From positions 4,058,001-4,122,000 of the forward strand of contig OX637402.1 in the NCBI GenBank assembly GCA_951799425.1: a stretch of DNA of 64,000 bases, in the 5' to 3' direction. Shown here in pieces: positions 9,491 to 47,763 of the stretch; position 1 is the first letter of the stretch; each line of letters begins with the position of its first letter. This DNA comes from Ilex aquifolium. Lineage: Eukaryota; Streptophyta; Magnoliopsida; Aquifoliales; Aquifoliaceae. The notes under the pieces were generated by a model. It was not told the DNA's origin, ran no database searches, and was given only the letters and a program-made list of their open reading frames with translations. Both the position numbers and the translations under genes were made by a program.

Positions 9491-9529
9491 GAGGTTGCTC
9501 GAGTGGTGCGAAGGTCACTCAAGCAGCTC
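9491..9529 (-). promoter_or_regulatory. GCTCGAG motif pair upstream of L1 ORF2
   Basis: 'ggttgctcgagtggt' and 'ggtcactcaagcagc' lie about 200 bp before the ORF2 start. The pair closely matches the array in the copia LTR at about 26953-26990 ('ggttgctcgagtggt', 'ggtcgctctagcagc'), in inverted orientation relative to element sense. A TTAAAA stretch follows toward ORF2 (about 9460). I infer an internal promoter. Confidence 0.55.
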
Positions 9530-10849
9530 CTGAAGCAGATCAAATCTGTTTTCTGTAGTCCAGCCCACTTCAACCCATCCCCATTCAGTCCTAACATGCA
9601 TGCATGATGTAAATTAAGTTTCAATATACTTCAATGCAATGTATGGATGAATTTGGATTAAAATCAAATGCAATTTTCAAATTTAGACAATAAATGCTCA
9701 AAATCCAAATAATCATGAAAATTACACCAATTTCTATTTAAACAGCCCCATTCAAAATTTATCATTCCAATACACTACTCTAAGACATAAACTCAATTGC
9801 ATGCATCCTAGAGCAATGTTTCCTCACTTAGGTTCAATTTCACTCACATGTATTCAAATTTTGTTCAACTTTGACAAATTAAAGTGCAACGTGTGTGAAA
9901 CCAACCTCCAACACAAAAAAGATTATGATTACTTTTATGCATTAATAAGCTCAACATGAAATACTAAATGCATTGTCTAAATAAATACATGACCAGTTAG
10001 TGAATGTCCTGAATTGTTCTTTTTTTGACAACTCCTCCTCTCTTTATCCCTTCTTCTCTATGACTTCAATTAACACGATTATAAATTTTGTACTTTAATG
10101 TATGCTTCTAAACATGATAAACATGAACTCTATGAGGTGTACAAATGAGAAATTGACAATTAAGCATAATTACTCTCACAATTCAAGTGCAATTATTTTT
10201 AGCAATTTATTTTGCCTCACCTTTTTAGATTTGGCCACATTAGGCTCTTTTCTCACAATTGGCCTTTGGTATCTTTTAAGGGATTGGAGTTTAACTAACC
10301 TTTAGCCATATGTTCACCTTTCACCAACACTTAGAATCCTTCAAGATTATTAATAATTCAAATTAATCAAACTCCTAAGTGTGAAGGTGAATGGCATGCA
10401 TGTACTTGGTTTTGAATCTTTCAAAGGTAAACACTATCCAAGCACGCTAGGATGAAAGAGAGTTTAGCTAATGAATCATGCAATCAGATTCATGCATTGA
10501 AATTATTTCAACTTTGGCTTAAGGATGAAATAATTTCAATGCAAATCAAAAGTGTGAATTGCCATGATCATGAACAAATGAAAAAAAGAAAAAAAAATAT
10601 TTTTGCCTTTTTCTTTTTCAATATTTTTGAATTTTTCAAGATAAAAATATACAAGAAAAATATGCATAAAGATGCAAGCAAAACAAAGAAAACAATTAAG
10701 GAAATTTACCATAAATCCTAAAAATGAATATCAAATTTGACATCAAAACTCTTTTTGAATTTTTCTATTTCTCTCGTTTTTTGTTTTTCAAAATTCAAAT
10801 GTTTTTGTATTTTCACATAGAAAAACAAATAACATAATAAAAAAAACAA

Positions 10850-10897
<48 letters not shown>

Positions 10898-10974
10898 CAC
10901 ACACACACATGTCTGACCCTAGGGTGTTTGATGAAATGTATGCAAGATCACCTAGGTCCATACTCTCGGCTCTC
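9530..10974 (-). other. L1 spacer between gag and ORF2
   Basis: AT-rich non-coding region. Parts are inverted copies of the L2 spacer (for example 9820-9900 against 18780-18860 and 10380-10400 against 18260-18280), which shows it belongs to the element. It ends in a (TA)n(CA)n microsatellite at about 10856-10908. I see no gene. Confidence 0.65.
10856..10908. repeat. (TA)n(CA)n microsatellite
   Basis: About 30 bases of alternating TA followed by about 20 of AC. Simple repeat within the L1 spacer; the short open frames across it are composition artefacts. Confidence 0.9.
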
Positions 10975-12824
10975 TTACTTCTTAGGAGCCATGACCTTGC
11001 TAGAAGCACTCGGGGTCTCTAACTTGGTTGAGATAGTGAGTTTCTCAAAGTTTTCCTTGGTCACCCATACTTGTTTTCCCTTCCTAAAACTCAGGTTAGG
11101 TTGGGGAATGGGTGGAGGACTAACTCTCTTCTCCCCGATTGTGTGTATATCAATCTTGACTTTGGGGGTAGAAGAAGCCTTGTTCACTCTAGCTTGTGGT
11201 CCTTGTGGAGATTATGCATGACTATACTTAGACTCACATGACCTCACTAAAAGCTTAGAAACATTAACAACTTGATTGTTCAATGCTTTAGATTGGTGTG
11301 CTAGATGAATGAGCTTTTTGTCTAAGACTTCCCTATTGTGAATACAATGTGCACTATGGTGACCATGCTCACCACAAGTAAAACACACAGATAACTTGGT
11401 TTGGGTTTTCTTTTTAACTGGATTCTTTTCTTGCTTACCCTTACCATTATTAGAATTTTTAGGACTTGTGCTTACTCATGGAATTGTAGGGTTAGGATCA
11501 CCCTTTACAAACACGGTCTTGGAAGAAGTGGAGGTGTTGTGTTCATTAGTGAAACCTAATCCTCTTTTGTCACTAACATTTTTCCCTATAGTCAACATTT
11601 TATCAAATTTTTGGTACTTTGGAAAGTCTTTTTGAGAGCTCTTGTGATTCATGTAGGTCTCTATCGACTTTTCTAAGTTTAAACTCAAGACCTTTCTTAG
11701 ACTCTAAAATCCCTTTTGTGCTCTCTCTCAAGGAAGCTCACCTTGTCATGGAGGGACTTCTTCTCCTCCTCAAGCCCAACAATATGAGCCTTGGACTTGA
11801 CTAAACATGAAGTTCTTTCTTTTCATCTTCACTCGTTTTGAGTGTAGTGCTCAATGAAAGAAACTTATCTCCTTGTTTTAGACACTCCTTGTATACTTCA
11901 TTATAAGCATCTTAGAGGTCCTAAACACTTTTGGTCTTATCCTCGCTAGTAGATACTTCTACAACTAAGTCATCTACATCCATAGTGAGACTAGACTCAA
12001 CTTCCACTTTTACTTTCACTCACTTTGGCCTTTAAGACTCTTTTCTTCTCCTTGGGCATGTCCTTCTTCTTAGCACTAGGACATTCTGCAACTATGTGTC
12101 CAAACCCATGACACTTGTAGGATTGGAGACCTTGCCCCTTATTCTCAACCTCATGTCAAGAATTTCTACCCCCCACTTTCTTTTCCTTTTCTAACAAATC
12201 TAGGCCCACTTGGATTTCCTTTCAACCTTGAGGACTTGACACCACTGGCCTTGAAATATTTGTTGAATTTATGAACAAGATAGGCTATGTCCTCTTCTCC
12301 TAACCGGGGTGACTCGGATTTACCTCTTTTTTTGATTTTAGAATCTAATGCAACACCCTTCACTTTCTTAGGTGGAAGTAGATCCATCTCGAAAGTCAAA
12401 ATCGACCCAATAAGGTCTTCAATTGACACTCATCTTGAACAAGGTCACCTTGGCATGAAATCTCTCAAGTAGAGATCTTAAGATTTTTCACTTAATTACG
12501 GCTTCGTCAATTTTTGGTTCCTAATGCAAAAGAAGAATTAACAATATCGCACAATTTTGCATAAAAATCACCAAAAGTTTCTTCATCTTCCATTCTCAAC
12601 ATCTCAAATTGTGAGGTATTCCTTCATTTTAATTCATCCCCCACTTCACCACCTTCAACTTGCTTGGTAGTAGTGGGAGGGCTCGAACCTTTTTCCACAC
12701 TTAACTATACTCTCTCATAAATTGATTTTAAAAACATTCTCATGCGAGCTTTCCAATAGGAAATATTAGAACCATCAAAGACAGGAGGTCGTGCAATTAA
12801 AACACATTCCTTTTGAGAATTCAT
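10975..12824 (-). pseudogene. Copia (SIRE-like) gag of L1
   Basis: Begins at ATG 12824 about 100 bp after the primer binding site. N-terminus shows 'RPPVFDGSNISYWKARMR' and 'MLRMEDEETFGDFYAKL', typical of plant copia gag (DUF4219/UBN2 type). Then come 'MSIEDLIGS', a basic linker, a first zinc knuckle with its first Cys replaced by Ser (about 12070-12115), a coiled-coil-like charged stretch, and a second knuckle 'CFTCGEHGHHSAHC' (about 11345-11386). The C-terminus ends at 10975. Several stops and frameshifts break it. No protease follows. Gag packages RNA and forms virus-like particles in copia elements. Confidence 0.8.
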
Positions 12825-12936: not shown

Positions 12937-14673
12937 TCTTGTTCCGAGAAAGAGAACCTGATATGAATCTTCCCTCATGATTATAAACGTGGAGACTAAG
13001 AGACTTACACTAGAGGGGGGCTGAAAAAGTTTTTTAATTTTAGCACAAATTGATTATAAACCAAAATCTATGTCTACCACAATTACCTCTTCTCACAAAT
13101 ATGAAGCAGTGAATGTGAGAACCCCTTTAGTCACCACAACCCTTCACACGATTAATATTCAATTAATTCAATCGTAATCAATCTCACCTTGATCCCAAAC
13201 CCAATGCACAACTATAATTGGATGTATATTCAATTAATCAATTACAAGAACACATAGTGTGCATTTGTCCTAACAAATCACAAGTGTATATGATAGAAAG
13301 TAAAGAACACTAGCAATTTGTTGACATGGAAAACCCTCCTCCGGAAAAACTGCAAGGAACCACTCAAGGTTCACCAAAGCCTAGTTCATTACTCTCCAAG
13401 TCAACATACAAGTACTTGAGACTTATACCTAAACTAATACTGTAGATGGATGCTCATTTCCTTGAATTGTCTCTCCATTGAAACTCCCTCTCTGACGTCT
13501 AGTGCAACTTCACTTGAGCCTCCCCACCACATGATTCATTTAGGTCTCGAGCGATTTTGGGCATGCCAACAATCCTCAGTATGCACACACCAATGGTTTT
13601 ATTCAACCAACAAGTTCTTCAACACTAATTTGTGAGGTCGGGGAGGATCACTAGTGGTAGCCTTTGGATCTTAGGGATCTAGGTTGTGGTGAAAGCACTC
13701 TAGGTTGAAATATAATTTTCTCTCTTAGAAATATCACAAGAGACTCTACTTAGGTCTAGGAAAGACACCCCCTATTTATAAGCTCGGAATAAGGGTAGAA
13801 GTGCGGTCATAAGGAGGTTGTCCTGGAGTGAAAAATAACATCTCAAACTAGCCAAGGACTAGGACTGCTCGAGAGACCATGGGACTGCTCGAGTCAGTTC
13901 ATAAAGTGAGCCCTGTACTGATCCCCCGTGAACTTTTTCTCTTTTTATCCTAAGTCATCAAGAGGTCACTCTAGCAAAGGGTAGTGACCATAGGGTGGTC
14001 CTTACATGTTTTTTAAGCCTAAAAATAAGAAAAATCAAATTCATGAAGGACCGCTCGATTGGTAGGAGTGCGGTCATAAGGAGGTTGCCTGGAGTGAAAA
14101 ATAGCATCTCAAACTAGCCAAGGACTAGGACTGCTCGAGAGACCAAGGGACTGCTCGAGTCCGTTCATAAAGTGAGCCCTGTACTGATCCCCCGTGACCT
14201 TTTCTCTTTTTATCCTAAGTCATCAAGAGGCCACTCTAGCAAAGGGTAGTGACCATAGGGCGGTCCCTACATGTTTTTTAAGCCTAAAAATATGAACAAA
14301 CTTTTCCTCTTGAGCACTAAAGGGTGTTTCTCAAAGAGGGATCCGATTGTGACTCAAACTATATTTTTAAAACTCATAAAAAATTTAGAAAAATCACCTA
14401 GGAGTAATATAATTGGATCGCTTCTAAATCCATTTTCATCCTAATCATCCTAAGTTAAAATAACTAAGGGTTCATCTTAGGTGTTTGAGTCATTACCTTT
14501 GTCCTAAACATGAAGGTGCATACAGAGGTTAAATGACGTAGCTTTGACATTTGATCTCCTCTCTTCAATGATATTTTTGGATCTTGAACTTGATAGTATT
14601 ATGACCATGGAAATGGTTGAGATTTTACAATGGACTCCATAAAATTAGCCAATTACAAAGATATGGTCTAATA
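12937..14673 (-). repeat. 5' LTR of L1
   Basis: Minus-strand LTR of 1737 bp. It begins TATTAGACC (sisters start TGTTAGAT) at 14673 and ends by the primer binding site. A TATA box reads TATAAAT at 13780-13774. GCTCGAG motifs lie upstream of it (about 13868-13900 and again in the duplicated copy). A 267-bp tandem duplication lies inside. The border at 14673/14674 is clean: copia gag codons of L2 ('LAFLAKKFKKYF') resume at once. Confidence 0.8.
13797..14292. repeat. 267-bp tandem duplication in L1 LTR
   Basis: The block starting 'gtgcggtcataaggaggtt' at 13801 recurs at 14068. Both copies contain the GCTCGAG motif pair and end in 'tttttaagcctaaaaat'. They differ at only a few positions, so the duplication is younger than most changes in the LTR. 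It doubles the motif array. Confidence 0.85.
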
Positions 14674-15193
14674 ACCTAGCTTTTCTTGCTAAGAAATTTA
14701 AAAAATATTTTTAAGGCTAGAGAGTCCTCTGGGTCAAAATGCAAATCTAGTAGAACTAGGGTGCCCAAGGAAGGTTGAGAGAACAAGGGAGTAGAAAAAT
14801 TAAGCAAGATGCTGAAAAGAAGAAGAGGAGGGCTCCAATGCTTTGAGTGTCAAGGCTTTGTACACATGGTTGTGGAATACCCAAATAGGAAGAAGAAGGA
14901 TTCGCCCAAGGATAGGAGGAGGGCAATAAAAGCTAAATGAAGAGATAGTGATAGTGAGTCCACTTCGAGTGAGGACTCCTCTTCTCAAGATGATGAAGAA
15001 AATTTTACGGCTTTTGTTGGTTTACAATTCTCCCCCTAGATAAAATTCTACTAGAGAAGTTGAGAGTGAGATAAGGAACAAGTCCTACCATGAGGGTAGA
15101 TGAATTGGAGGTTGAGGTATTCTCAAGTGAGGATGACACCAAAAGTATTGAGGACATACATGAGGCCTATGCCCAATTGTGTGAAGAGTTCCT

Positions 15194-16888
15194 TGCTTGA
15201 TCGTTTTTCCTAATCTCCAAACATGAGCCCGGATTGTGTGTATATGGCTTATACGAGTTGGTGAGTGTCACTCTCCCTTGGATTCAAATGCAAAAAATGG
15301 GAAAAATCGTACGTGTGAACAAAAAATTGTGTGTGTATTCAAAAGTGCTCCCCAAGTATAGAGAGACTTGCAATGTCGTGTTTTATTTGGAATGGGTATT
15401 CCAAGGTCGTCTACTCAGGGAAAGAAAGGTCAAATGCTTTTGAAGGGTGATTTGTAAAGAAATAAAAATTGGAAACTCTTGTGAATTTTGTTTTGGTGAG
15501 TTGTGTTTTAGAAGTATGCAAGAAAGCAAGGTTGGCTAATCCATAGAGGTCATTCCAATGTGAATGCCAAATCGACTCAATTCATTCAACCAATGGTGTC
15601 TCAGTGTTTGATTGATTCGTAGGAAGTGAGGGACTAATGTGGTTGTGTTAGGAAAAAGCATACATCGTGACAAGTCTACGGTGTATCAAGAGCCCACAAC
15701 CACGTCCGCACTCAACCTAGTCAAACCAAACACTTTACACTACGAGTAAGAATGAAAGAAAGTCAATTTCACATACCCAAGAGAAAATTCCTCTTGGATT
15801 AACCAACTAAAATTTTAGCTACTCATAATAAAGGCAATAACCAACATAAAGTAAAGAGACATGGTAGTGAAATGAAGCATGAGACTTGTATTGATGCAAG
15901 AACAAGTTTAAACTACAAGAGCAAAGTCATTCATACCCAAAATACAAAGTTTGAAGATAAAATACCCAATTGTAGAAATGGAAAGACAAGAACACTTAAC
16001 TAAGCTTGATTACAACTTAAATAAAAGATTTTAGAGTAAAAGAGGGAAAGATTACAAGTAAAATAAAGCTTACTACAATGAAAATGGTGAAGGAAATGTA
16101 AAAACCCAACTTTCTCTCTCTAAAACTTCATCTTCAACCTTTGAGCTTCTCCCTCTAAAAACATGTAAAATCTGAATAATGGTGTAAGATCCCCTATTTT
16201 TGTCCATCCTCTCTCCCTTAGCATTCGTGAACTGAATTGGAATGATTGGAGAGAGGTTGGACACTTGAACAAGCAAAATCAGTCCAAGCATGCTTTTCCC
16301 ATGCTTTCCCAACCACCCCTCCTCTCTCTCTTGCTTCACCCCTCTCACTTACTTCAAATATGACTTTAGAGGTTAGGAGAGCATCATGGGGTGTCAAACA
16401 TGCCAGGGTATAGTTTGGAGGTCAAGAGGTGGGCCCCCAGAGTAGGTGGAGTAGTGTGAACAGGTGTCTGGCAGATCTAGGCAAAACCTACCAGTAGAAC
16501 GTAGAAAACCTACAGGCAGGTTTTTGCATGGCAAAGGTAGAAGATTTCCAGTAGCATTTTCTACCGGTAGGTATTGAGTCTTCTACCGGTAGGTTTTGAA
16601 TGACTTCTACCGGTAGGTCTTGGTTGCCTTCTATCGGTAGGTTTTGTCCTGCTTTGGGATTTCCTTGGTTTCTTGAGGTCCCGAGCCATCCGTTAAGCGG
16701 TCCCTTCTTCCCCATTGAATTTGAGCACTTAATGGGATGCTTTATACACGACCTTACCTGCTCTTTACCTACAATCACACAAATCTCCAATAATTGTGAA
16801 TTTGAAACCATTTCCCCCAATTTTCACCACAAAACAAGTAATATGGGTGCAATAGAGATGCATGAGGTGCAATATTCTATACTCATCA
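15194..16888 (-). repeat. Solo Athila LTR F
   Basis: A 1695-bp LTR on the minus strand, from TGATGAGTATAG (16888) to GATCAAGCA (15194), flanked by an exact 5-bp duplication TTCCT (15189-15193 and 16889-16893). No internal element sequence remains, so it arose by LTR-LTR recombination. Array class TACCGGTA groups it with the LTR at 58374. The 'gctccccaagtatagagag' block (15348) is the complement of the conserved 'gcttggggagc' block. Confidence 0.9.
16486..16650 (-). promoter_or_regulatory. TACCGGTA array in solo LTR F
   Basis: Seven CTACCGGTAG-like palindromes, three exact (about 16560, 16584, 16608) and others decayed (ACCAGTAG, ATCGGTAG). Same class and slot as 58621-58770 in LTR E. Confidence 0.6.
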
Positions 16889-17735
16889 TTCCTCAAACTC
16901 AAGGATAGAGTGTTTACATTGAGCTTGAGGCTCAAAACCAATAAAGAGGAAAAAAAAGCACTTCATGTGGATTTAGTGAAGTCCAAGGCTCATATTTGTG
17001 GGCTAGAGGAAGAGAATAAGTCCTCGAATGACAAAGTGAGCTTTCTAGAGAGTGAATGTCATGGGCTTGTAGATTTGAAGAAGAGTTTTAAAGTTTAGGT
17101 TGATAAAAATTGATAGAGACCATCACGAATCACAACTCTCTAAGAGACTATCCCTAGGGACTAAAAAGCTTGACAAAATGTTGTCTATACCGAAGAGTGT
17201 TGGTGACAAGAGAGGTTTAGGGTATACTAATGAAGACACCACCTCCACTCTTTCAAAAACCATGTTTGTGAAGGCCAACCCATCACCCTCAAGTGTGAAC
17301 AAAAGTTCCCCAAAAGCTAATAGAAATGTCACTATAGTGCACATGATCACTATAGTGCACATTGCATACATAATAGGAATGTCATGAACAAAAACCTTAC
17401 TCACAACCAATCCAAGGCCTTGGATGATCAATTCATGCATCTTACTAAGCTTATGGATGGGTTACATGAGTCTAAGCCTAGATTCCTTCACCACCTAAAG
17501 GCTCACAAGCTAAGTTGAATAAAGCTCTTTTTACTACCAAGGTCAAAATTGATTTAACTACACATGGAGAGAAGAAAGTTAGCCCATCACCCATGACCCA
17601 AGCTAACCCTAGAGATAAGGGAAAACAATTGTGGGTGATTAGTAAGGACTTGACAAAGCTTAGCACCTTGACCAAATTGGAAGCCCCCGGTGCAACCAAG
17701 GAGGTTGAGTCACTTAAGAGGTATGTGAGTTGAGT

Positions 17736-19159: not shown

Positions 19160-19251
19160 GAAGGGTCGAGTGCTGAACTGCCAGTTGCACAACACATCAT
19201 CAGGGACTGCTCAAGCGACCCTGCGACCAGTCAGCGCCTAGGGTTTTAAAT
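19160..19251 (+). promoter_or_regulatory. GCTCGAG-type array and TATA-like site before L2 ORF2
   Basis: 'gactgctcaagcgacc' (19205-19220) with 'ctgcgaccag' matches the copia LTR array, for example 'attgctcaagcgact' and 'gactgctcgagcgag' at 25370-25398. A TTTTAAATA stretch follows at 19243-19251, about 180 bp before the ORF2 ATG. Same order as in the LTR: array, then TATA. I infer a second promoter. Confidence 0.55.
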
Positions 19252-19431
19252 ACGAAGACAATCGTCCCCTTCATTGTTCAAACACCTCAATTCATTTTCC
19301 AAGCCTCCCAAAACCCTTATCCATCCTTCATAAACATTCACAAACACATTTTAACCAAATTCTAGGGTCAATTCACTTCTTGAATCACGAGATTCAAATT
19401 CTAGGGACCTAGATTCTTAGCATTTTTTGAG

Positions 19432-20643
19432 ATGCCTCACCATAGAGAGAAAATTTCTAGGGTTTAGGAAACTTGTGAGGAATTCGAGGTGAACTTTGAT
19501 GAAATAATCCGATTTCAGACCCTGGAGTACGAAGCAAGAGATCAAGAGGAGTATGCCCACAAACAGTTGATGATTGAACGTGGGGTAAACTTTGATGAGG
19601 TAATTTCTTCAATTCTTGATAATTTCGCAGTCAAGGATGGACCCCAATTTTCGTGGCCCCAAAGTTATTGAATGATGATATGGTGAGAGATTTTTGTGCT
19701 CATTTTCGAGAGCCTGATCCCGAGATGACCACTTTGTTACCTATATTCGAGGGATTAAGTTTATTTTTTTAGTAATTTTCATCACTACCATTCTTGGCCT
19801 GCCTAGAGTTGTGAGTGATGCCCTTGGAGCTAAATTAGTTTAGGAGTTGTCTCGTCTCTCTATTATGGCTATTGAGTTGTAAGGTATATCATATACTAAC
19901 AATTGGGTTGAGTAGAAGTTTTATCAGAAGAGATTGACCTAATATTATAGGATGTTAAACCTTATGGCAAACTATAACATAAAACCAAAGACCTATATTT
20001 TAAATTTCCTTGTCTAGAGAGAACACATGCTACATGTCAAAGGTAGAGGGTAGATCTCAATTTACCTTTGCTGATTCTAGGGTCTATTTGGCATGTCTTT
20101 GAGGGGAGAGTATCAGATGGTCTTCCATTTCAATCATTGATCACTTGTATCTACAAGGGAAAGGGAGCAGTGATCTTGCCCAAGGATAGGATGTAGAACC
20201 CTAAGAGGCCTCTTAATAAGAGTTCTTTGAAGATGAGTAGGGCCCAAGAAGAGTATGTTATGATAGAGGAGGAGAGAGTGGATGAGATGGAGGATACATT
20301 TGTTGGAATTTGACCTCGTGCACCACCCCTAGTTCACTCTCAATCTAGTACTTCAAGAGTACCACCACCACCACCACCTCATAGTTCGGATATCCTAGTT
20401 GCCCAGTTAGAATCAGTGGTTGACATGCTTACTAGGGCAGAGTAACGCATGGAGGAGCATCATCACCTTACTTCACATAGGTTAGATGCAATAGATGGTA
20501 GGATATTAAACCTTGAGTCTACCCAGAAGTCAACTTTTGGATCTATTACAAAGATTGTTGGGAGACATTGGAGGTTACTAAAGGGCAAGCAAGGTAAAGG
20601 CGATCCATTGATTGATGATAGTGATGATTTCGCTGTGCAATAG
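19432..20643 (+). pseudogene. ORF2 of L2
   Basis: Starts at ATG 19432 (GAGATGCCTCACC) and ends at TAG 20641 in the same frame, about 403 codons with internal stops and small frameshifts. Motifs shared with L1: 'QLMIERGVNFDEV', 'DDMVRDFCAHFR', 'TILGLPR', 'NNWV..KFYQKRLT', a Pro run near 20350-20385 and the helical 'HRLDAIDGRI' near the C-terminus. Distantly like the post-pol ORF of the Athila elements here. Function unknown. Confidence 0.6.
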
Positions 20644-21206
20644 CTCCGACGTGGTGGAGAGAGAGATGGACCGTGATGGTGGAGATGACGTGGTGACAAG
20701 TGCGGCTTGATTTTAGAGACTTAGTATAGGAAAATATGGGAGCTTTTGAGACATTTTATCTAAGTTATTCTTTAACATGAAAAAGGAGAAAAAGCCTTAT
20801 AGGTTTAGGAGGTATTAGATTACATCAAAAAAGAAAAGGTGTTAGAAAGTTGGGGACTCTGTTTTTTTTATCATATGCCAATAAAGATGGGATCAAGAGA
20901 TAGTTGTCTAATCTAAGTTTCTCAACAATGAGGTTGCATAAAATCTTGGAAGCTAAGGTCTTTTGGATTTTCATCTGGAAGCCGTCTTGGATGATAGATT
21001 TTTTGGAATTATAGTGGGGTACGGTGGCAGCCTATTCCACCAAAGTGAATCTTTGATATTTTAAATTCTTTTTTCTTTTTCTATGTAATTTTCTCTTAAG
21101 CAAGCTTTTTCTTAGAGGGTAAGGTCTATGTTCCCCTCCTTTTTATGAATAAAATTGGAAAAATTACGAGCAAAAAAAAAAAAATAAAAAAAGGGGGAGA
21201 ATTTTT
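20644..21206 (+). other. L2 3' region with A-rich tail and PPT
   Basis: Non-coding. Contains AATAAA (21149), then an A-run (21172-21191) and the purine tract AAAAAAAGGGGGAGAA (21185-21201), the copia-type PPT, just before the LTR. The stretch about 20850-21190, with AATAAA then poly(A), could be an inserted LINE or mRNA 3' end; I see no target duplication to prove that. Confidence 0.5.
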
Positions 21207-21837
21207 TGGTTGAAATTTGATGACTAGCTATAGTTTAAAGATCAAGATCTGTAAGCAACAAGGAAGTGAAGAAGATCAAGCTACAAACAAAAATCAAAGC
21301 CACTCTGATGCTTCTTCAAGCTTAGGAAAAAGGCATGTACCTTAGAAACCTAGATCCCTTGGTTTAATTTTAGACTTAGGATGATTAAAATGAAAAAAAA
21401 ATGGAATTTGCATTATCTAGAAATCACTCCTAGAGTTTCTCATTGAAATTATTTTTCTAAACCTTAAACGTATTTTGAAAAGATGATTTGAGTTATTTAT
21501 CGAACCCTACTTAAGCAACACCCTTTAATGCTCAAGTGGTTAATTTTTTGCTTATTTTTTGGCTTTAAAACCAATAGGCACCACCCATTGTTCCTGCCTT
21601 TGGATAGAGCGGTCTCTAATGACTTAGGGATAAAATCGTTAAGGCTATCGAGTTAGGAAGTAGAGACCGCCCTCTAGGTTGCTCTCAGGGCGCTCGAGTG
21701 GTCCCTGACCTTCCAGACTAGTTTGATTTTTTTTTTTATTCTAATGAAAATTATCCTCTCGCCACTCTCCCACTGCTCGAGTGGTCTTTCATAAATTTTT
21801 GTTTACTTGGCCTCTAAGTTTGACCTAATTCCGAGCC

Positions 21838-21844
21838 TATAAAT
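21838..21844 (+). promoter_or_regulatory. TATA box of L2 LTR
   Basis: TATAAAT followed by GGGGGAAG, about 55 bp after the last GCTCGAG motif. Counterparts: 13780-13774 (minus) in L1 and 29492-29498 in the LTR at 26444. Confidence 0.65.
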
Positions 21845-22326
21845 GGGGGAAGCCTTCTAGGGCTAGGGTATCTCTCTCGGGCTAGGGTATCTCTTTAGAA
21901 AGCCTAAATTAAGCCTCTAAAACCTTTAGAGATCATAAGAACCCTAGATCTCTAATAACCTAAGGTATCCATCTTGAATCTTCATTCAACATCACACATT
22001 GAAGAAGAGGCTCTTGTTTGGAATCACATAAACCTATTGAAGGAGCGTGAATCCCGAGGATCTTGGCACAAAACGTATCTCAAATAACCTAAATGATCCA
22101 TTGTGCATTCAATTGAAGTTGTCCATAACTCTAGTCGGGAATCCAAATGAGGGGTTTAAAGGAAATGAACATCTAACAATAGTATTGGTTGAGGTATATG
22201 TCTCGAGTAATTGTAAATAAATTTTGGGCTAGTGGATTATGTTTTGGTGAATAGCAGGTGGTTCTCAACAGTTTTTCTCGATTGGGTTTCTACGTCAACA
22301 AATTTTTTGTGTCGTTATTTTCTTTA

Positions 22327-22995: not shown

Positions 22996-23384
22996 ATTTC
23001 TTTAAATTGGCTTATACACTTGCAATTTGGCATACAAGCGCACTATGTGTTTGATAGTTTGATTGTTAATCATTCAATTCATTGAAAAGGGTTTTGTGAG
23101 CAATTTCCTTGGTTGAGATTCTCATGGTGAGATTAAGTGTGAAACGGTTTATTGCATATCACTACATCAATCTACATGACGATGTTTATTGGTTGTTAAA
23201 AGCTATATAAACACTTTATTGACACATCATTCATTGAATTGGTAATTGTGGTGTTCTTGGTTAAAATTGGTGGTTGTTTGGATTAAAGTTAGATTTCACC
23301 CCCCTTTAGGTTATGCCTTAATCCCACATGTTTAATTATGAGGGATGATCCACTGCACACCGTGTTTCCCCCAAAAAAATATAC

Positions 23385-23990: not shown

Positions 23991-24155
23991 TTTATCAAAC
24001 ATGCTTTGGTTTTTTGCTTTTAAGGCAAAACTATATCACATGTACATTTTTTACTTTAAAAAATTATTTCAAAAGCGTTACAAAATGGAGACCAAAAGAT
24101 TCATGTCCATGATTCAAAATTATAATAAAGTAATAAAATAAAGAGAACAACTACA
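23991..24155. other. Short unassigned spacer
   Basis: AT-rich, no recognisable element or gene. It ends at the TGTTAGAT start of the next LTR. Confidence 0.4.
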
Positions 24156-31257: not shown

Positions 31258-32809
31258 TGGTTGATCTCAAATAGGTACACTCAAGTGCAGGTAGTCAAGA
31301 AGTAATAATTTCTCGATAAATCCGAGGTCAATCCTCAGGGAAATGATTTTGGTATAAGAAAAGGTGAAAAGAAAGAATAGTTTATCTAAATTGTAAAGTG
31401 GGTAATTGTGGCTAATTCTAAAGAAATTCTTATGTATGAAAGGAACTCTCTAGTATCGGGATCAGGAACTAGTCATGAATATTGAATATAATATTAAAGC
31501 TATTATTTCTTATATCAGTTGACTTCCAATGTCAGTGTAATCAACTGGTGGATATAGCTTTTTAAATCAAGATTTGATTAATATGAAAATACAACTTTAA
31601 GAACTAGTAATATAAACTCGCAGGGAATTATAAGAATTGTCCATACCTAGGAATCAACCCCAATAATGAACAATCAAATAAGTATACAGAGTATATTATC
31701 TTGATTAGAATTATTTATTTAATCGGATAATAAAAATGATAAATCATTCAAGAATAATAAACCAATAATGGAATTAACATAAATATTCAGTATACAGTCC
31801 AAGGACCTTACCCTAACAAGAGAGTACAAAGGAGGATACTCATTGGCCCTGGAGGTTCTCTCAAAAGACTTGAAAAATTACCTAAGGAAAAGAAGATCAA
31901 GATCAAGATCCCTACAAAACTGACTTTTTTCCCTATTTATACTTAACAATAAAAATAATCAATAATAATAAAATCACTATCTAAAATCTTTAAACCTCTA
32001 CTCGGATAAACCTAAAAAGCGCCTATTTCAATAAACACGTTCAGATGGAAGACTTGCATCCGAACGGATGCCTCATTGTTTGGGGTCTTCTCCTTGGTCA
32101 ACCAACTAAGTCCGAACAGATAATTACATCCCAACAAGGATACACCATATTGTCAAATCTTAGTCTGTATGCATCCCCACATCCTAACACCTTGAATTCT
32201 CTGGAATCCAATATTCACGAACAAAAGAATTATGCCTGGAGGCATACTTAACCCAATTCCAAGCTGCACAGTATCAGACCTCGCGTTCAGATGGAAGACT
32301 AGCGTCTGAACGCATCTAGCTATCCAGGACCGATCCCACAATATCCAACATGACTTCGTTGACTTCTTCTTTAATTCCGCTTTAACCCCCTTAATTTCTT
32401 TGCAATCCCCAATTGTCCGGACGATTCACCAAGCACTCCAATTCTGCTCAATTTACCTGTTTTACCTGATGACATAACCAAATACTAAAAACCAATCAAA
32501 TCATAAACTCCAGGGATTATTCAATTAATACCTCGGAATCAACATAATTCTTCATAAATAATTGATACTTTTAATGACGATCTTAAAACAAACTACTAAA
32601 ATAATTTATCAAAACTAATCCACTTTCGCAAGACTCACGATGGCTAAATGCAATAAGCCTTAAAAACTTCTGTTAATCTACCCATTGTTTTGAACTTTTC
32701 ATATAACTTCACCAATAATCAAACAAAATATACAAATAAAAATACCAACAAGTGCATACCAATTCAAATCATAGAACCACAAACTATACAACAATATTTA
32801 CGGATTACA
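31258..32809 (-). repeat. 3' LTR of E2 (borders tentative)
   Basis: On plus it starts TGGTTGATCT, where LTR M stops. The upper border is placed at 32809, because TTTCAAAGGGGA on the minus strand (32821-32810) is a fair PPT before TGTAATCC. TATA box TATAAAT at 31941-31935 (minus), with the motif array upstream. Length of 1552 bp fits Athila LTRs. The upper border could be elsewhere. Confidence 0.5.
32038..32325 (-). promoter_or_regulatory. TCCGAACGG-type array in E2 LTR
   Basis: 'gttcagatggaagacttgc' with 'atccgaacggatgc' (32040-32072), and 'gttcagatggaagactagc' with 'gtctgaacgcatc' (32285-32318): inverted pairs around a 'ggaagact' core. The TATA box follows on the minus strand at 31941. The same words occur at 37180-37355 before ORF2. 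Confidence 0.6.
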
Positions 32810-35922: not shown

Positions 35923-36900
35923 TCAATCAGATCGTCCATCTACAGGGTCTCTCATAAGTGGATCCACTCTCTCCACACCATCATATATAGGCTCATCTGC
36001 CTCTTTTTCCTCACCAGGCTCATCAGCATCGGGCACTAGAGTTGTGCCTTTGCCCATAGCTCCACGGCTCTTAACCAAAGCCGTATTATCTAACACTCTG
36101 GGATGTTTCTCCTTCAACATGTCCTCAGTCACCCCCAATGCCCTATCCATGCAAATAGAAGTCACTAAATACCCAAAGGGAAGGGAGGATTCTTCGTGTT
36201 GTCCTTCAAAGCTCATTGCATCTCAGATATAATAATAGAAGACAGAAAAATAGTACGCCCAGTCCCAATGACATACAATAGCATAGCCCTATCGGGATAG
36301 ATGTGATTCTTCCGGGCTAGCGGAAGCATACTAGTCATCGAGATCCAATTAAGGATCTTGTACTTGTCTGTCAACTACCCTTTGTTCAACTTCCTATCTC
36401 TCTGAAGCCAAACAAAGTGGGGATCTCCAGTGAGCTCCCTAGCCACATCTTGCATATTGTATACTATAGTCAAAGTGTACTATGGCCCTGGTACAACATT
36501 CACCTTGGCACTTGAAAAATCACTAGGGAGTCCACTACAAAACTCACTCCCTTGACCATAGTCCGAAACCTCTTCGGATCTATTTGTTTTGCATTTGAGT
36601 AGAACTCATGGATTAGTGGAGTAGCCCCTCACCCAACCTCTTCAAGAAATCACCCCAACCTTTCTATGTACAATCTGACCAATCCCATACCCCAGAAACT
36701 CCTCCCAAATTAGATTATGATTCATCCCAATAGGACAAGATGAAAAATAGTGAATATACCTCTACTCAGGCTCCTATGTAGGAAAACGAGTATGACCAAC
36801 GATGTTGAACCCCTTTTTATAAACCCACACCCCGGGCTCATTTGGAACCGGTGGTACAACTCTTGTAACCTAGGCACTAGTTTGAGGCATGTCTGATCAC
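35923..36900 (-). pseudogene. ORF2 of E2
   Basis: ATG at 36900 (minus, ATGCCTCAAAC) and end at 35923, with several stops and frameshifts. Visible: 'EPGVWVYKKGFN' near the start, 'LIWEEFLGYGIGQIV', 'LNWISMTSMLPLARKNHIYPDR' (partly quoted), 'LPFGYLVTSIC' shared with the LPFGSLVTKLC of the Athila-A copy, and an Asp/Glu-rich C-terminal part. Fits the post-pol ORF family. Function unknown. Confidence 0.6.
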
Positions 36901-37164: not shown

Positions 37165-37355
37165 CTTTTATAAACCAAGACGTGCATCCGGACGGACACC
37201 TTATGTTCAAACACAATAGTTAGGTATGTTAAGTCCCAAGGCATCACGTCGGTTAACATTCTAGAGGTTTGACTATCTCAAAAGGCACGTCCAAACGGCT
37301 TGAAGTCTCTGGACTTGCACGTCTGAATGGAAGATTTGTGTCCGAACGCTTGCAT
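37165..37355 (-). promoter_or_regulatory. LTR-type array and TATA box before E2 ORF2
   Basis: 'cgtctgaatggaagatttg' with 'tgtccgaacgc' (37320-37350), 'cgtccaaacgg' (37287-37297) and 'catccggacgg' (37184-37194) repeat the words of the E2 LTR. On the minus strand a clear TATAAAA (37172-37166) follows the last motif directly, about 265 bp before the ORF2 ATG. I infer an internal promoter copied from, or shared with, the LTR. Confidence 0.65.
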
Positions 37356-38105: not shown

Positions 38106-39888
38106 TGATGAGCGCAGAATATTGCGCAATTAACGACCTCATTACATCCATTTAAACATTTTTTGGAATGCATTGTTGGGAATTGGTTTAAATTGGCAAG
38201 TAATGGAGAAATGTATGATTTGCAGGAGATCGAATAGTAAAATATAGGATTCTATCACATTTCAATGAGTTGGGGACAATGGGCAAAGAAGGAACTCAAG
38301 GAAGAAGGGCTCAGGAATGCAGAACGCATAAATATCAAGAAAATGAGGAGGTACCGGTACTTGGTACCATTGGTACCGGTACCTGAGCCCACTTCCATAG
38401 AGGTACCGGTACCTTGTATCATTGGTACTGGTACTTGAGCCCACCGAAATTCAGGTACCGATACCTTCTTGTCTATGTACTGGTACCTGGCATTATACCG
38501 TAGCTATTCAAAATTTGAAGAAAAGGAGGAGGTACCGGTACTTGACATCATTGGTACCGTTACTTGAGCCTATTGCCATCGAGGCACCGGTACCCAAAGC
38601 CTAGAAGTCCCAAATAACTTTCCCCAGGACTCCACAAGCTGTAAGGGCCCACTCCTACTTATTTAATCGATGTTTTGACCATTTCAAAACTCCACCATAG
38701 CTTCCTAATCTTTGCATTCAACCTATATGAATGAAAGAATGATAGGGGTAATTAAAGGAAAGAGAAAAAGAGAATGATTGGAAAAAAGGAAAGAGGCCAT
38801 GCCTTTTGTCTGATTTTGGAAGCCTTTTTGGAGGACACTTCCCAATGCAAGCTATCTAAGCACACTCAAGGGTAGAGAGAGTGGTATGGACAAAATAAAC
38901 TTGAATTTGGAAGATAATTTTTAGCTTTTAGAGAGAGAAGCTTCGAGAAAGAAGAAGGCAGTTCTAGAAAGAGAAAGCTAGGATTTTTGCTTCTCTTTCA
39001 CCAATTTCATTCTTGTAGGCTTCAATCTACATGTAAACCTTTTTTCGAGTACATTAATCTCATTTATTTCAAGTTGTATTGAGTTTAGCTATGGTTTACT
39101 AGAACCATTGCTTGTTTTTTGGTATTTTCCCTTTAAGCTTTACATTTTGAGTATGAATACAACTTCTTTTGTAGTTTAAACTTCTTCTTACATTAATGCA
39201 AGTTCATGTTTGATTTCATTACCATGTTTTTCTCTTTCATGTTTTTTCTTGCATTTATTTTTTAGTTTAAACCTTTAGTTGGCTAATCCAAGAGGGATTT
39301 CCTCTTGGGTATGTGGAATCAATTCTCTTTCATTCTTCCTTATAGTGTAAAATGTTTGGTTTGACTAGGTTGAGTGCGAATGAATGTGGTTGTAGGCTTT
39401 TGATACACCGTCGACTTGTCACGGGGTATGCTCTTGTCCAAGCAACTACATACATCTCTCACTTCCTATGAATCAATCAAACACCTAGGCACCATTGGTA
39501 GAATGGAATGAATTGATTTGGCATACCCATTGGAATGAACTCCATGGATTAGTCAACCCTTTTTCTACTTGCAAATTTCTCAAAATAAAAATCACCAAAC
39601 TTCAAATCACAATATTTTCTAATTTTTCCTTTTACAATTCACTTTCAAAAACACTTGACCTTTCCTTCCTAGAGGAGACAACCTCGGAACTTTTTTATGA
39701 GTTAAAACATGACATTATAAGTCTCTCTACGCTTGGGGAGCATTTTTGACTATCACACACGTGTTTGTTCATCCACTCACAATTTCTCTACATCTTGCAC
39801 GAGCTTGAGTGAGAATGACACTCACTCTTTATTATAAGTCATACACATAATCGGGTTTATGTGGGAAGTAAGGGAAACAAAACAACCA
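38106..39888 (+). repeat. 5' LTR of Athila-C
   Basis: 1783 bp, TGATGAGCGCAG to ACAACCA. Differences from the 3' LTR include GCG to TAT/CAT-type changes near the start, consistent with decay of methylated cytosines. GTACCGGTAC array at 38350. Followed by TTT and the primer binding site. Confidence 0.9.
38350..38593 (+). promoter_or_regulatory. GTACCGGTAC array in LTR C
   Basis: About ten GGTACCGGTACC-like units, often paired as 'ggtacttggtaccattggt' spaced repeats with 'tgagcc' spacers. Array and spacer pattern are repeated in the 3' LTR (52369-52634). The slot corresponds to the TTCCGGAA and TACCGGTA arrays of other Athila LTRs. Confidence 0.65.
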
Positions 39889-42458: not shown

Positions 42459-43037
42459 TTGGGGAGGAAGTGTTTGTTGAGGATTGGGAACCAGAGACTG
42501 TGCAAGGGGTGGGAACTTGGACCCCGACATTTGAAAAATTTCCTCCACAACAAAATTTTTTTTAGATGCACTGTCCAAACACCTACTTTGGAGTTGAAGC
42601 CATTACCATCCACACTGAAATATGCATTTTTGAGGGAGAACCAAACATTTCTAGTGGTGATAAGCTCTTCATTAGAGCCGGAGCAAGAGGAAGAACTGTT
42701 GAGAGTCTTGAGGAAGCATAAAGGAGCGATCAGTTGGACTATTGCCGACATCAAGGGGATTAAACCTCTCATTTGCACCCACATAATATATATTAAAGAG
42801 GACGCCAAGCCATCCCGACAACCACAAAGGAGACTCAATCCAATTATGAAGGATGTGGTTAGAGATGAAGTGCTCAAGCTACTTGATGTGGGAATCATCT
42901 TTGCGATTGTCGACAGTAAGTGGGTTAGTCCCACACAAGTAGTACCAAAGAAATCGGGAGTAACGGTGGTGGCCAATGAGGAGAATGAATTGATCCCAAC
43001 TCGGGTGGTCACCGGTTGGAGAGTTTGCATACACTAA
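42459..43037 (+). pseudogene. Reverse transcriptase N-terminal part of Athila-C
   Basis: Frame 3, ending at a stop at 43035. Contains 'RRLNPIMKDVVRDEVLKLLD', 'SKWVSPTQVVPKKSG' and 'WRVCI' motifs of Ty3/gypsy reverse transcriptase fingers. By comparison with Athila-E (63256-63300), about 30 bp coding the conserved NYRKLN and FPLP steps are lost at about 43031-43050, which also shifts the frame. Confidence 0.85.
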
Positions 43038-43041
43038 CAGA

Positions 43042-45474
43042 ATGAATTTTTCGATACCATTCCTTGATCAAGTGTTGGAAAGGGTAGCAGGACATCTATT
43101 CTATTGCTTCTTAGATGGCTACTCCGGCTACAATCAAATAGAGACCGCCCTGGAAGATCAAGAAAAGACCACATTCACTTGCCCCTTTGGAACATATGCC
43201 TATTGTCGAATGCCATTTGGGCTATGCAATGCCTCGGGGTCTTTTCAAAGGTGTATGATGGGGATATTCAGTGATATGGTGGAAAATATTGTGAAAGTTT
43301 ACATGGACGACTTCTCAGTGTTTGGGGACTCTTTTGAAAGATGTTTGAAAAATTTGGAGAGAGTATTAGAGAGATGTGAAGAGAAAAACTTGATGCTTAA
43401 CTACGAGAAGTGTCATTTCATGGTGACCAAAGGGATTGTGCTGGGTCTCATTGCGTCTACAAAGGGAATAGAGGTGGATAAGTTTGAAGTGGAAGCAATT
43501 TCTAATCTACCTACTCCCAAGATAGTAAAAGACATCAGGTCGTTTCTTGGCCATGCAGCTTTTTACTGTCGTTTCATTAAAGATTTTAGTGCATTAGCAA
43601 GACCCTTGAAAAATTTGCTAACAAATAATGTCCTATTTGTGTGGTTGGATGATTGTGAGGCATCTTTTCAAAAACTTAAAAGTATGCTAATCTCACCTCC
43701 AATCATGCAACCACGTAATTGGGAACTCCCATTTGAGCTCATGTGCGACGCGAGTGATTACTCGGTCTGTGCAATGCTAGATCAAAAGGAAGATAAAAAG
43801 ACTCATGTCATATACTATACTAACAAAACCTTAAATGAAGCTCAAATGAACTACACCACCACTGAAAGGCTAGCCATAGTGTTTGCTTTGGATAAATTCA
43901 GGTCATACATCATTGGTTCGCCTATCGCAGTCTATACTGATCACTCTGCTTTGAAGAATCTGTTGTCTAAGTAGAATGCCAAACCGAGACTCATTAGATG
44001 GATCCTCCTCCTTCAAGAATTCCATTTGATCATTAAAGAAAAGAAAGGAATTGAGAATGTGATGGCAGACCATTTATCACAGCTTGTTGTTTAAGACACC
44101 AAAGAGCACATCCCTATCCCCGACTCTTTCCCGAATGAGCATTTATTTTCTATCCATTCATTTTATCCATGGTATGCTGACATTTGTAATTTTCTTGCCA
44201 CATGACAAATGCCCCCACATTGGAGCCCAGAAGACAAGACAAAATTCATGGCAAAGGTAAAGTACTTTTACTTCGACAATCCATACATGTTCAAGTATTG
44301 CCCTTACCAAGTCATGAGGAGATGTGTACCATACAATGAACAGCGTGATGTCCTCTCCTTTTGTCATTCTGAAGCATTTGGCAGGGACTTCTCTTCTAAG
44401 AAAACTTCAACTAAGATTTTACAAAGTGATTTTTACTGGCTGACATTGTTTAAATATTGTGTTTCATTTTGCAAACAATGTGATATGTGTCAAAGGTTAG
44501 GAAATGTAGACCGTAGGAACATGATGCCCCTTACTTCTATTTTTTTTATTAAAATTTTTTATTGTTGGGGCATCGATTTCATGGGTCCATTCCCTGTGTC
44601 ATATGGCTACCTTTACATACTACTGGCAATTGATTACATGTCTAAGTGGGTAGAGACAATCCTGACCAAAACCAATGACCACCGGGTTGTAGTCAAGTTC
44701 TTAAAAGAAAATATTTTGTCTAGGTTTGGGATGCCTCGAGCTATGATAAGTGATAGTGGTTTACATTTCTGCAATAGGTCATTTGGTTCATTGATGAATA
44801 AATATGGCATGACACACAAAGTGTCCACCACATATCACCCACAGACCAATGGCCAAGCCGAGTTGGCCAATAGGGAGATAAAGACCATACTTGAGAAGTC
44901 GATTAACTCTAACTGAAAGGATTGGTTACTTAGATTGAGTCACGCCTTATGGGTTTACCGCACCTCTTATAAGACCATTCTTGGTATGTCTCCCTATAGG
45001 TTAGTCTATGGCAAGGCATATCACTTGCTAGTGGAGATGGAGCACAAGGCATATTGGGCCATAAAAACTTTGAATTTCAATCTAGGACTAGCTAGGATTG
45101 ATAGGAAATTGGAGATAAATGAGTTGGAAGAAATCCACCGGAATGCATAGGAGAGCTCTAGAATTCACAAAGAAAGGGCTAAAATCTTTTATAACACATT
45201 CATTGTGAGGAAAACATTTGAGCCCAGCCAAAAAGTGCTCTTGTATAATTCTTACCTCTCCATTTTCCGAGGGAAACTTCGATCTCGATGGGATGGACCC
45301 TACATTGTCAAGGTGGCCCACCCACATGGAGCCGTGGACATAGAAAACCCTGATGATGGCAAGATATGCAAGGTCAATGGCCAAAGACTTAAACCATTCT
45401 TTGAGGGTTTTGAACTTCAGGAAGTCGAAGAAGAGTTGGTTGATCCGGTCTACCCGGATCTTGTTAAGGCATAA
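43042..45474 (+). pseudogene. Reverse transcriptase, RNase H and integrase of Athila-C
   Basis: One frame with stops only at 43972, 44092, 44203, 44914 and 45148. Reverse transcriptase palm with YMDD at 43300-43311. RNase H with 'LMCDASD', 'TTERLA' and 'YTDHSAL'. Integrase: zinc finger CHSEAFGRDF...CKQCDMC, where the second His of the HHCC is Asp; core Asp at 44575 (GIDFMG), Asp at 44752 (ISDSG) and Glu at 44860 (QAELANREI), a D,D(35)E spacing; then the C-terminal domain 'GKLRSRWDGPY', 'IENPDDGKICKVNGQRLKP'. Only point changes broke it. The degenerate zinc finger could predate the stops. Confidence 0.9.
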
Positions 45475-45712: not shown

Positions 45713-46484
45713 GTTGCACCATTTGCATGACACACCAATTTTTTGTTGATAATACCATTTTGTGGTGAGATGCACCATTTTGTTGATGATAAGTTGAAAA
45801 AATTTGATGAAATTTTTTGAAAAAAAATATATAAAAACATCCAATATTGAACTATATTTTTCCTCCTAACTATTTTGGGACCAGTGTTTGCTTGACCTAG
45901 AACTTGAACATATGAGTGCACCATAGAAGTTTATCCTATGCTTAATTAGCACAAGAATGTCTTTAGTCAAACTCAACCAAAGTGCACCATGAAGGTGTAA
46001 TTTTTTGCAACTTACCAAAGGAGATTCACATCTTAAGATCTTAACATAAATAGTGGAGATGAATTACCCTTGTGAGCCATTGTGCCATTCCATTTTGGAG
46101 GGTTAACTTACATGTACTCAAAAGAAAAATCTTTCAAGTTCAATTTTGTTCAATAGTCTCAGTATTCTTACTTTGGTTAGTGTGAAAAATGATAGTTAAT
46201 TGATGTGATCTGAAATGCATAGTAGTACTTAGCCATTTATCTCTGAGAAATGATTTTAGGCCTTCTTTGATCAACCTTTAGCCTTGGCCTTTCCGTTCAA
46301 AATATTGCCCCTAGTCACCGTGATTGAGTTATGAATGAACTAATTTCATTTACTTAACCACATCTTTGACTGAGCCACGTGGAATATAATTATCCTACCT
46401 TGGTTATCCTGAGATGAGCAATGCTTTTATTGAAGAAGGGGATGTGATGGTGGGAAATGAAACAAAGGGAGGATGTAAGCATGA

Positions 46485-46645
46485 ATTGAAAAAGGGGGAG
46501 GGGGGGGGGGGGGGAAGGCAAAAGAAAAAAGAAAAGAAATAAAAAAAAAGGGCCGAAGAAGGCAAAAGCAATAAGAAAAGGGCGAAAAGAAAAAGAGAAA
46601 TAGAAAAAAAATGGAATTAAAATGAAGGGGGATTGGAAAAAATGA
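46485..46645 (+). repeat. Purine-rich (G/A) tract
   Basis: About 160 bases almost free of pyrimidines on the plus strand, including G14 (46501-46514) and A-rich runs. Possible triplex or slippage site. Confidence 0.8.
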
Positions 46646-47686
46646 ATGATGCACCAAAAAAAGGTGAATTGTGATTTTAATGCCATATTCTCGGGATAAT
46701 TCACTTTGAACTTATTTTTCCCTTCTTTTCTCTTATCCCTCACCCAAGGCCACGTTATAACCAAAAAAAGTACTTTTTGATATCAAGGATACATGACAAA
46801 AGCACATTCTAAAGGAAAAGAGAAGTCAATGACACTGTCTTAAATTGCCCTAACATTCCATTCATGAGATTATGCCAAGGTCATTTCAATTGTTTTAATG
46901 TGCTTTTCAAATTAGAGCATCCTAGTTTTTGAATACAAGATTCTTTCTTACATATTAACACTAAGGGAAAGTCACTATAACTATAGATTAATTCACTCTC
47001 AGAGAAAACCCTTGGTGAGAATTGCATCAAATCTGAATTTGGATAGCGAAATGGATGGGGAGATTTTTGGGTAAGTTTTTTAAAATTGCATTTTCATTAC
47101 ACACACAAGTCTTGAAGGGAGATGTGTAGATGAGTACTTTTGAATAGCATTTAAATCTATGGTACGACTCATGGGTAACTAGTTGGAGTGAATACGAAAA
47201 ATTTTGTTCAAGGCACCCTAGGGCTAGTTAGGATGATGAAATATGTTTCAAATTGCAGGATATGAAAAAAAAAAAGGAGAGAGAGAGAGAGAAGTTTGTA
47301 GGTAGCTTCACTGTAAACCTTCACGAGAAAAACTCATCCGCTAGGGATCACCTAGTGGTTTAAAAAAAAATGTAGTGAGTAGGATAGGAAAAAATTGGAA
47401 TACCATAGACTTTATTTTGTGTTGTACTTGATGGTGTTCATTTTGTTTAATTTAGAATTCCATTACATGTGTTTTGAAATCATTAAGAGTTAAATCGCGT
47501 TGCAATTTTGTAAATGAATTCGGACAAAAATCAGACAGTGTGATTCAGTAGCGTGGATCATGTTTTTTGGGTAGTTAAGTTAGGAAATAGGTTGTTAGAA
47601 TTCTTTGGATTCAAATAAAGTAGATAAAATGGAAGGGGAATGAGAAAGAGCAGAAAATAATTTTTTTTTGCAGAATTAAGGGCAGG

Positions 47687-47763
47687 TACCGATACCAAGT
47701 CAAAGAGGTACTGGTACCTAATTGACAAGGTGCCAGTACCTAATTGACGACGTACCGGTACCT
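47687..47763 (+). promoter_or_regulatory. GTACCGGTAC array before Athila-C ORF2
   Basis: Four units: 'ggtaccgatacc', 'ggtactggtacc', 'ggtgccagtacc' and 'gtaccggtacc', spaced 20-25 bp, ending 180 bp before the ORF2 ATG (47943). The array class is that of this element's own LTRs, not of other Athila LTRs. A TTTTAAAAGGGG stretch follows (47792-47803). Confidence 0.65.

Follow-up and report, generated by a model that had tools for sequence, protein, structure and literature searches.

Palindromic LTR sites recur ahead of ORF2 in Athila-type and, less clearly, in Sirevirus-like retrotransposons of Ilex aquifolium

Introduction

Sireviruses, which belong to the Ty1/copia superfamily, carry element-specific palindromes, the RM boxes, in the U3 region of their long terminal repeats (LTRs) before the TATA box, and again before their envelope-like (ENV) open reading frame (ORF) (PMC2829016). 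Palindromic motifs are described there in 13 Sireviruses, of which the nine that bear ENV have linker copies as well, 77 of 79 of them upstream of ENV; Bousios et al. 2010 took this layout to support an internal promoter and did not themselves identify one (PMC2829016). Here we describe a similar arrangement in 64 kb of Ilex aquifolium DNA (contig OX637402.1, positions 4,058,001 to 4,122,000 of the forward strand; below, the window), where palindromes of the LTR recur in the leader of ORF2, the extra ORF after pol. While RM boxes are described from Ty1/copia elements and as absent from the classic retrotransposons of that set, the arrangement seen here occurs also in Athila elements of the Ty3/gypsy superfamily, labelled C and E2, in addition to a Sirevirus-like family, L, in which it is likely but weak. 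It is a gypsy-superfamily variant of the layout known in Sireviruses, and its presence in Athila elements is what is new. On visual comparison with Table 3 of PMC2829016, Sirevirus cores are mostly CGG...CCG, whereas those of the window are CCGG (elements A, C, E and B) or CCG..CGG (E2).

Three other systems offer points of comparison. With the Athila lineage the elements share a primer-binding site (PBS), the pol order, an ORF after pol, an additional tract resembling a polypurine tract (PPT), as noted for Athila4 and Calypso (PMC2829016), and the domain PF20167, which in a sunflower Athila ORF accompanies a predicted nuclear signal (PMC11728184). Among the matches listed from the open-licence literature, there was no report of Athila palindromes common to an LTR and an ORF2 leader. 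The VANDAL transposons have short family-specific motifs in non-coding arrays that differ between families, as here, but they are DNA transposons, and binding by the element's own protein, VANC, is shown there and is a possibility here; 'palindrom-' words do not occur in the main text of that paper (PMC5735166). Finally, maize Sirevirus LTRs have palindrome clusters in their regulatory region (Bousios et al. 2016, cited in PMC10760457 and PMC5311732), which in the available parts of the citing papers are mentioned for small-RNA targeting, ORF2 leaders going unmentioned.

Results

Palindrome arrays in the LTRs

The window (38.8% GC) is packed with nested, decayed LTR retrotransposons (Table 1). 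It holds 131 perfect palindromes of at least 10 bases, 29 of them centred on CG, and 26 of these 29 lie in LTR arrays; the others are one in the C leader (47752) and two elsewhere (22779, and 38121 in a C LTR outside its array). When all 4096 twelve-base palindromes were ranked within each of 11 LTR sets, words centred on TACCGGTA or TTCCGGAA ranked first in eight, the top words being CCTTCCGGAAGG in A and A2, GGTACCGGTACC in C (and, tied with others, in B2), CCTACCGGTAGG in E and E′, and TCTACCGGTAGA in B1 and B3. A stricter bar, the highest count that any palindrome reached among 10 shuffles, was exceeded in five sets (A2, C, E′, B3 and B2). By self-comparison the LTRs of A, E, E′ and A2 are related to that of C in their 3′ part (~68–77% identity), and since the words of these relatives are CCTTCCGGAAGG in A, CCTACCGGTAGG in E and GGTACCGGTACC in C, both half-sites change together. 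Over all elements, most of the sites are symmetric. In C, most mismatches between copies are C>T or G>A changes, and the central CG is often the base pair hit. Methylated decay would leave this pattern, and the arrays were therefore probably cleaner when the elements inserted.

Two further features of the LTRs were noted. B1 and B3 (TCTACCGGTAGA) and B2 (GTACCGGTAC) bear palindrome arrays at similar positions with different motifs, the cores being common to Athila E and C. In the L1 LTR, a 241-base direct duplication (13794-14299, 95% alike) doubles the palindrome sites.

Sharing between LTR arrays and ORF2 leaders

The original prediction held that in every testable element, four in number, an element-specific LTR motif recurs just before ORF2. 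Words picked from the LTRs alone were scanned, with up to two mismatches, over 36,599 non-LTR bases, a leader being the 500 bases before ORF2. All four non-LTR matches of GGTACCGGTACC fall in the C leader (~3e-8 under uniform placement), and for six C words the leader takes 5/6, 6/6, 8/9, 6/6, 6/6 and 4/4 of the non-LTR matches, overlapping positions counted. When arrays were aligned to 683 non-LTR windows of 200 bases, the C arrays scored 46 at the C leader and 28 at best elsewhere. The C motif is thus present, as predicted, in both LTRs (nine and ten copies) and before ORF2 (four copies). The spacers between the C leader sites are unrelated to the LTR spacers (in a spacer-only alignment, 172 of 300 shuffles do as well), so it is the site, not a copied segment, that LTR and leader share.

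The predicted sharing was also borne out in E2, whose array finds its best match among the 683 windows at its own leader (score 32, none elsewhere equal; the six top windows listed all overlap it). Three of its six commonest LTR words match the leader (2/3, 2/3 and 1/2 of their non-LTR matches) and three do not (0/4, 0/3, 0/3). The placement is real in these two Athila elements. For A, A2, E, E′, B1, B3 and B2 no array had a leader as its top window; those coming closest were A2 on the L2 leader (8 windows elsewhere as good) and B2 on that of C (6). Among the three families, the nearest to a cross-match came from the E2 array, at the leaders of C (42 windows elsewhere as good) and of L1 (59).

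In the L family, represented by L1 and L2, the words give 0 or 1 matches per leader, and at 19205, where a GCTCGAG core had been read before ORF2 of L2, the sequence is GCTCAAG. L1 and L2, ~66% alike by self-comparison, are homologous and belong to a single family; the four cases therefore reduce to three families, two strong and the L family weak.

A ten-mer comparison of whole LTRs with leaders was tried and set aside, being saturated, with cross-element highs not borne out by the array-based tests. Besides C with its own LTRs, these highs joined the E2 leader to the C LTRs (7, 0/500 shuffles as high), the L2 leader to one C LTR (1/500) and the C leader to E and L2 (9 and 5/500); the own-LTR signal was unclear in E2 (45/500), L1 (83/500) and L2 (127/500).

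Promoter-like features of the leaders

A TATA-like box, T[AT]T[AT]AA[AT], begins 28 (C), 11 (E2), 20 (L1) and 22 (L2) bases past the last site, measured from script-set site ends that lie 0–4 bases past the last core. All four leaders thus have a box within 30 bases, as compared with 907 of 14,380 non-LTR 50-base strand windows (~6%), and the TATAAAA reported at 37172-37166 in E2 is present. The form GGTTTWWAAA, chosen post hoc, occurs five times on both strands of the window, three of these in the C, E2 and L1 leaders, and in L1 and L2 the last site and AGGGTTTTAAA align at nearly equal spacing. From the last site to the putative ATG there are 187 (C), 293 (E2), 196 (L1) and 209 (L2) bases, each within a few bases; the ATGs were placed in decayed frames, and those of C, L1 and L2 were used one base off. 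The predicted distance of 180–300 bp agrees with these values.

The further claim that the array precedes TATA in the LTRs as well held for E2, L1 and L2, with boxes 99 (TATAAATA in E2), 85 and 53 bases past the script start, and failed for C. B1 and B3 also have a box past the array; none was seen past the arrays of A, A2, E and E′ within the scanned stretch.

Three elements have a further polypurine tract, resembling the one at the 3′ LTR, after gag/pol and ahead of the ORF2 leader: C at 45699 (+), reading AAGTTGGGGGGTG, E2 at 37639 (−), in shortened form, and L2 at 18631 (+), reading AGGGGGAG. Its distance to the array is ~2.0, 0.3 and 0.5 kb, respectively.

ORF2 and PF20167

The extra ORFs of L1, a Ty1/copia element, and of the Ty3/gypsy elements A and C all match one Pfam domain, PF20167 (Transposase_32), and this is new. 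The match is above the gathering cut-off in the open L1 piece 8687-9190 (E 3e-16) and in A at 787-1164 (E 8e-14), and below it in A at 394-786 and in the open C pieces 50552-50995 and 51045-51476 (E 8e-4 and 2e-4), C ORF2 having 40–46% identity to that of A. The E2 piece 35923-36222 had no convincing Pfam match and is 29% identical to A ORF2 (E 0.002–0.004). ORF2 starts are basic in C (RKKRKM) and L1 (PKREKRPR). AlphaFold models of two open ORF2 pieces had mean predicted local distance difference test scores (pLDDT) of 35.0 and 43.8, too low to show a DNA-binding fold.

Table 1. Positions of the features discussed, numbered from the first base of the window
Feature	Position	Strand	Remarks
C 5′ LTR (Athila-type, Ty3/gypsy)	38106..39885	+	GGTACCGGTACC array 38350-38594 (9 copies); pairs with 52125-53907 at 86%
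C PBS-like GGTGCCGTTGCCGGGG	from 39893	+	follows C 5′ LTR
C pol pieces	42994..44916	+	reverse transcriptase (RT), RNase H, then integrase: Ty3/gypsy order
C pre-ORF2 array	47685..47762	+	four sites (47685, 47707, 47729, 47751), 22 bases apart, 1-2 mismatches from GGTACCGGTACC
C pre-ORF2 TATA-like box GGTTTTAAAA	47789..47798	+	
C ORF2	47949..51476	+	putative ATG ~47949; interrupted by B3 (48023-50562)
C 3′ LTR	52125..53907	+	array 52369-52634 (10 copies); LTR pair by self-comparison
E2 LTR (Athila/Tat-like 3′ end)	31277..32520	−	array 32038-32330; both boundaries set by us
E2 pre-ORF2 array	37187..37355	−	TCCGNNCGGA-type sites, then TTTATAAAAG at 37174-37165
E2 ORF2 remnant	35923..36890	−	putative ATG 36890; several stops
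L1 element	14674-8400	−	copia-type
L1 LTR (Ty1/copia, Sirevirus-like)	12940..14674	−	outer boundary approximate; TTGGTATCAGCA adjoins inner end
L1 LTR array units	13794-14034 / 14061-14299	−	two units, 95% alike; TATAAATA past array
L1 pre-ORF2 sites	9493..9528	−	CACTCGAGCAACC; GCTTGAGTGACC; then GGTTTTAAAA at 9472-9463
L1 ORF2	8687..9295	−	putative ATG ~9295; early stop before 9190
L2 element	14650-22325	+	copia-type
L2 pre-ORF2 sites	19165..19220	+	GTCGAGTGC; GACTGCTCAAGCGACC; then GGGTTTTAAAT at 19241-19251
L2 ORF2 remnant	19432..20300	+	putative ATG 19432; stops; 46% to L1 ORF2 over 97 aligned positions
L2 3′ LTR (L1-family copy)	21202..22325	+	sites 21691, 21774; TATAAATG shortly after; octamer AGGGGGAG at 21192
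A ORF2 (Athila type)	154..1479	+	array leader expected left of base 1
A 3′ LTR	1815..3496	+	CCTTCCGGAAGG array 2063-2193
E 5′ LTR	58374..60009	+	CCTACCGGTAGG array 58622-58764; E ORF2 would fall right of 64000
Chromovirus-type LTRs B1-B3	4566-7834, 27042-29520, 48023-50562		B3 is 48023-50562, inside C ORF2

Identity and relatives of the elements

C is assigned to Athila from its Ty3/gypsy pol order, its sense Transposase_32-related ORF after pol and its PBS, which we take to be of Athila type. A close form of this PBS is present in two plant-like loci, L001 and L002, which were the matches to the PBS pattern in bacterial assemblies; viral contigs held none. Both loci are short contigs (36.5% GC) of Streptomyces clavifer and Blastococcus endophyticus assemblies with Athila/Tat-like LTR ends and a PBS, and both are probably contamination. 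A tblastx comparison with the window gave a match of L002 to gag-pol of C and none for L001, and a U3 array or ORF2 was recognised in neither. The LTR end of E2, of CCCTGAGGATTGACC type, is similar to theirs. No relatives were found by RT or ORF2 in viral contigs, or by RT in genome contigs. B1, B2 and B3 resemble chromovirus LTRs, and B1 is preceded by a Tf2-type SH3 piece whose chromodomain match is below cut-off.

L1 and L2 are not Athila elements; a copia-type gag and a matching PBS place them in Ty1/copia as Sirevirus-like. The L1 LTR abuts TTGGTATCAG, presumably a PBS of the initiator methionine tRNA (tRNA-iMet) type, followed by the copia-type gag (Retrotran_gag_3, E 0.006; zf-CCHC, E 0.019/0.006; all below gathering cut-offs). 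The octamer AGGGGGAG, which sits 10 bases before the Sirevirus 3′ LTR (PMC2829016), is found in L2 at 21192, with a second copy at 18631; the L2 LTR start is decayed and was placed at 21202 by this 10-base rule itself. In a Pfam scan of sense open pieces of at least 35 amino acids between gag and ORF2 (L1 9200-12945, L2 16890-19440), no pol domain was matched in 21 of 22 pieces of L1 and 9 of 10 of L2, the pieces scanned. With gag and ORF2 pieces and no pol domain found, L1 and L2 suggest a non-autonomous family that retains ORF2. Farther along, 22156-31258 is a stack of inverted and direct L-type LTR fragments, a nest of rearranged copies.

Discussion

On balance we think it probable that the palindromes are cis-regulatory sites for a dimeric, sequence-specific DNA-binding protein and serve two promoters in each element. 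The array in U3 would then drive the genomic RNA, and the shorter array, up to ~30 bases upstream of a TATA-like box, would drive a separate ORF2 mRNA; if both promoters bear the same kind of site, they may be controlled jointly. The binding protein is most likely encoded by the host, a view favoured by the cores common to unrelated elements (B2 and C; B1, B3 and E) together with the LTR palindromes of ENV-less Sireviruses. The second, LTR-like promoter of the original prediction is consistent with the sites, the box and the ~190–300-base leader, but 'LTR-like' would apply only in part: with no LTR box after the array and with unrelated spacers, the C leader hardly resembles a copy of the LTR promoter.

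Several results weigh against this reading. Neither C LTR has a TATA-like box within ~400 bases past its array, and the leader boxes of C, L1 and L2 are TTTTAAA, not TATAAA. Top palindrome counts in A, E and B1 do not exceed the shuffle maximum (4 vs 5, 4 vs 4 and 7 vs 7), and the twelve-base search gave no convincing word in the LTRs of E2, L1 and L2. Own-element preference is strong in C and E2 and weak in L, where the L1 array scores best at the L2 leader (28, none elsewhere equal) and only 26 at its own, with 13 windows elsewhere as good, and the L2 array scores 28 at its own leader, with 4 elsewhere as good. The C leader is also the site of the only non-LTR matches of five of six B2 words (1–3 each) and two of six E′ words (1 each), because they have a core in common with C. 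The best non-LTR match of the E/E′ arrays lies at ~60301-60401 (60301-60600), inside E past the LTR, with 12 bases exact, and that of the B1/B3 arrays at ~3801-3951 (3801-4150), before the B1 LTR, with 15 bases exact; both carry a TACCGG or TACCAG half and are away from any ORF2 leader seen, so LTR-type sequence occurs outside such leaders too. The E2 LTR is assigned to its ORF2 by orientation, position and motif only, and LTR A2 lies between them. Finally, ORF2 may be expressed by splicing or readthrough, splice acceptors being predicted for Athila (PMC2829016).

If the binding protein were instead the ORF2 product itself, the PF20167 protein would bind its own palindromes in the LTR and at its own promoter and activate or un-silence both, much as VANC does. 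We consider this unlikely, although much would fit. The one Pfam domain is matched in ORF2 pieces of two superfamilies, L1 and one A piece above cut-off; the ORF2 starts of C and L1 are basic, and the sunflower Athila ORF with PF20167 is predicted to be nuclear; L1 and L2 retain ORF2 though a pol domain was not found between gag and ORF2; and VANC provides a precedent of family-specific short motif arrays bound by the element's own protein (PMC5735166). On the other side stand the ORF2 models, whose scores (pLDDT 35 and 44) were too low to show a DNA-binding fold, the four ENV-less Sireviruses that still have LTR palindromes (PMC2829016), the arrays of the chromovirus-type B1–B3 LTRs, for which no such ORF was seen in the window, the same core in unrelated elements, and the E2 ORF2 piece, which alone has no PF20167 match.

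Rather unlikely, too, is that the arrays act through folding or chromatin, as RNA hairpins, small-RNA hotspots or nucleosome-placing sequences. Against 60 shuffles, folding z scores are −4.7 for the C LTRs, −6.4 for the C leader, −6.0 for A, −7.9 for A2, −5.1 for E, −7.0 for B1 and −8.4 for B2, and small RNAs concentrate on the palindromic LTR regions of maize Sireviruses (cited in PMC10760457 and PMC5311732). A palindrome array folds regardless of its role, however, so that the folding score is not independent evidence, and an RNA-hairpin role is put low because in L1 and L2 neither the arrays nor the leaders outdo shuffles in folding (z −0.6 to 0.5); those of E2 do so only slightly (−1.9, −1.8).

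It is improbable that the pre-ORF2 sites are a functionless by-product of descent, a piece of U3 copied once before ORF2 and now decaying. The E2, L1 and L2 matches do extend beyond the palindrome (32, 34 and 30 bases), and C, E2 and L2 each have a PPT-like tract ahead of their pre-ORF2 array, as such a copy would have it, but the C spacers are unrelated, the tract-to-array distance varies, and it would be left unexplained why the layout recurs across two superfamilies whose motifs differ.

That the L1 and L2 sites are a chance likeness of a short GCTCGAG-like word is very improbable: the 13 and 4 windows that equal their own leaders would suit it, as would a site form tolerant of CpG decay that misses the L1 LTR itself, but three of the eight non-LTR matches of this form, chosen post hoc, fall in the two leaders, and the last site and AGGGTTTTAAA keep near-equal spacing in L1 and L2, which are ~66% alike.

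These observations bear on the way in which plant retrotransposons express the ORF that follows pol, and on its role. With one kind of site in the LTR and again in the ORF2 leader, and this in two superfamilies, the idea of an internal promoter can be put to the test, and a PF20167 ORF common to both superfamilies makes self-regulation by the ORF2 product worth testing as well. Whether it is the ORF2 protein or a host factor that binds, the palindrome is a concrete ligand with which to ask.

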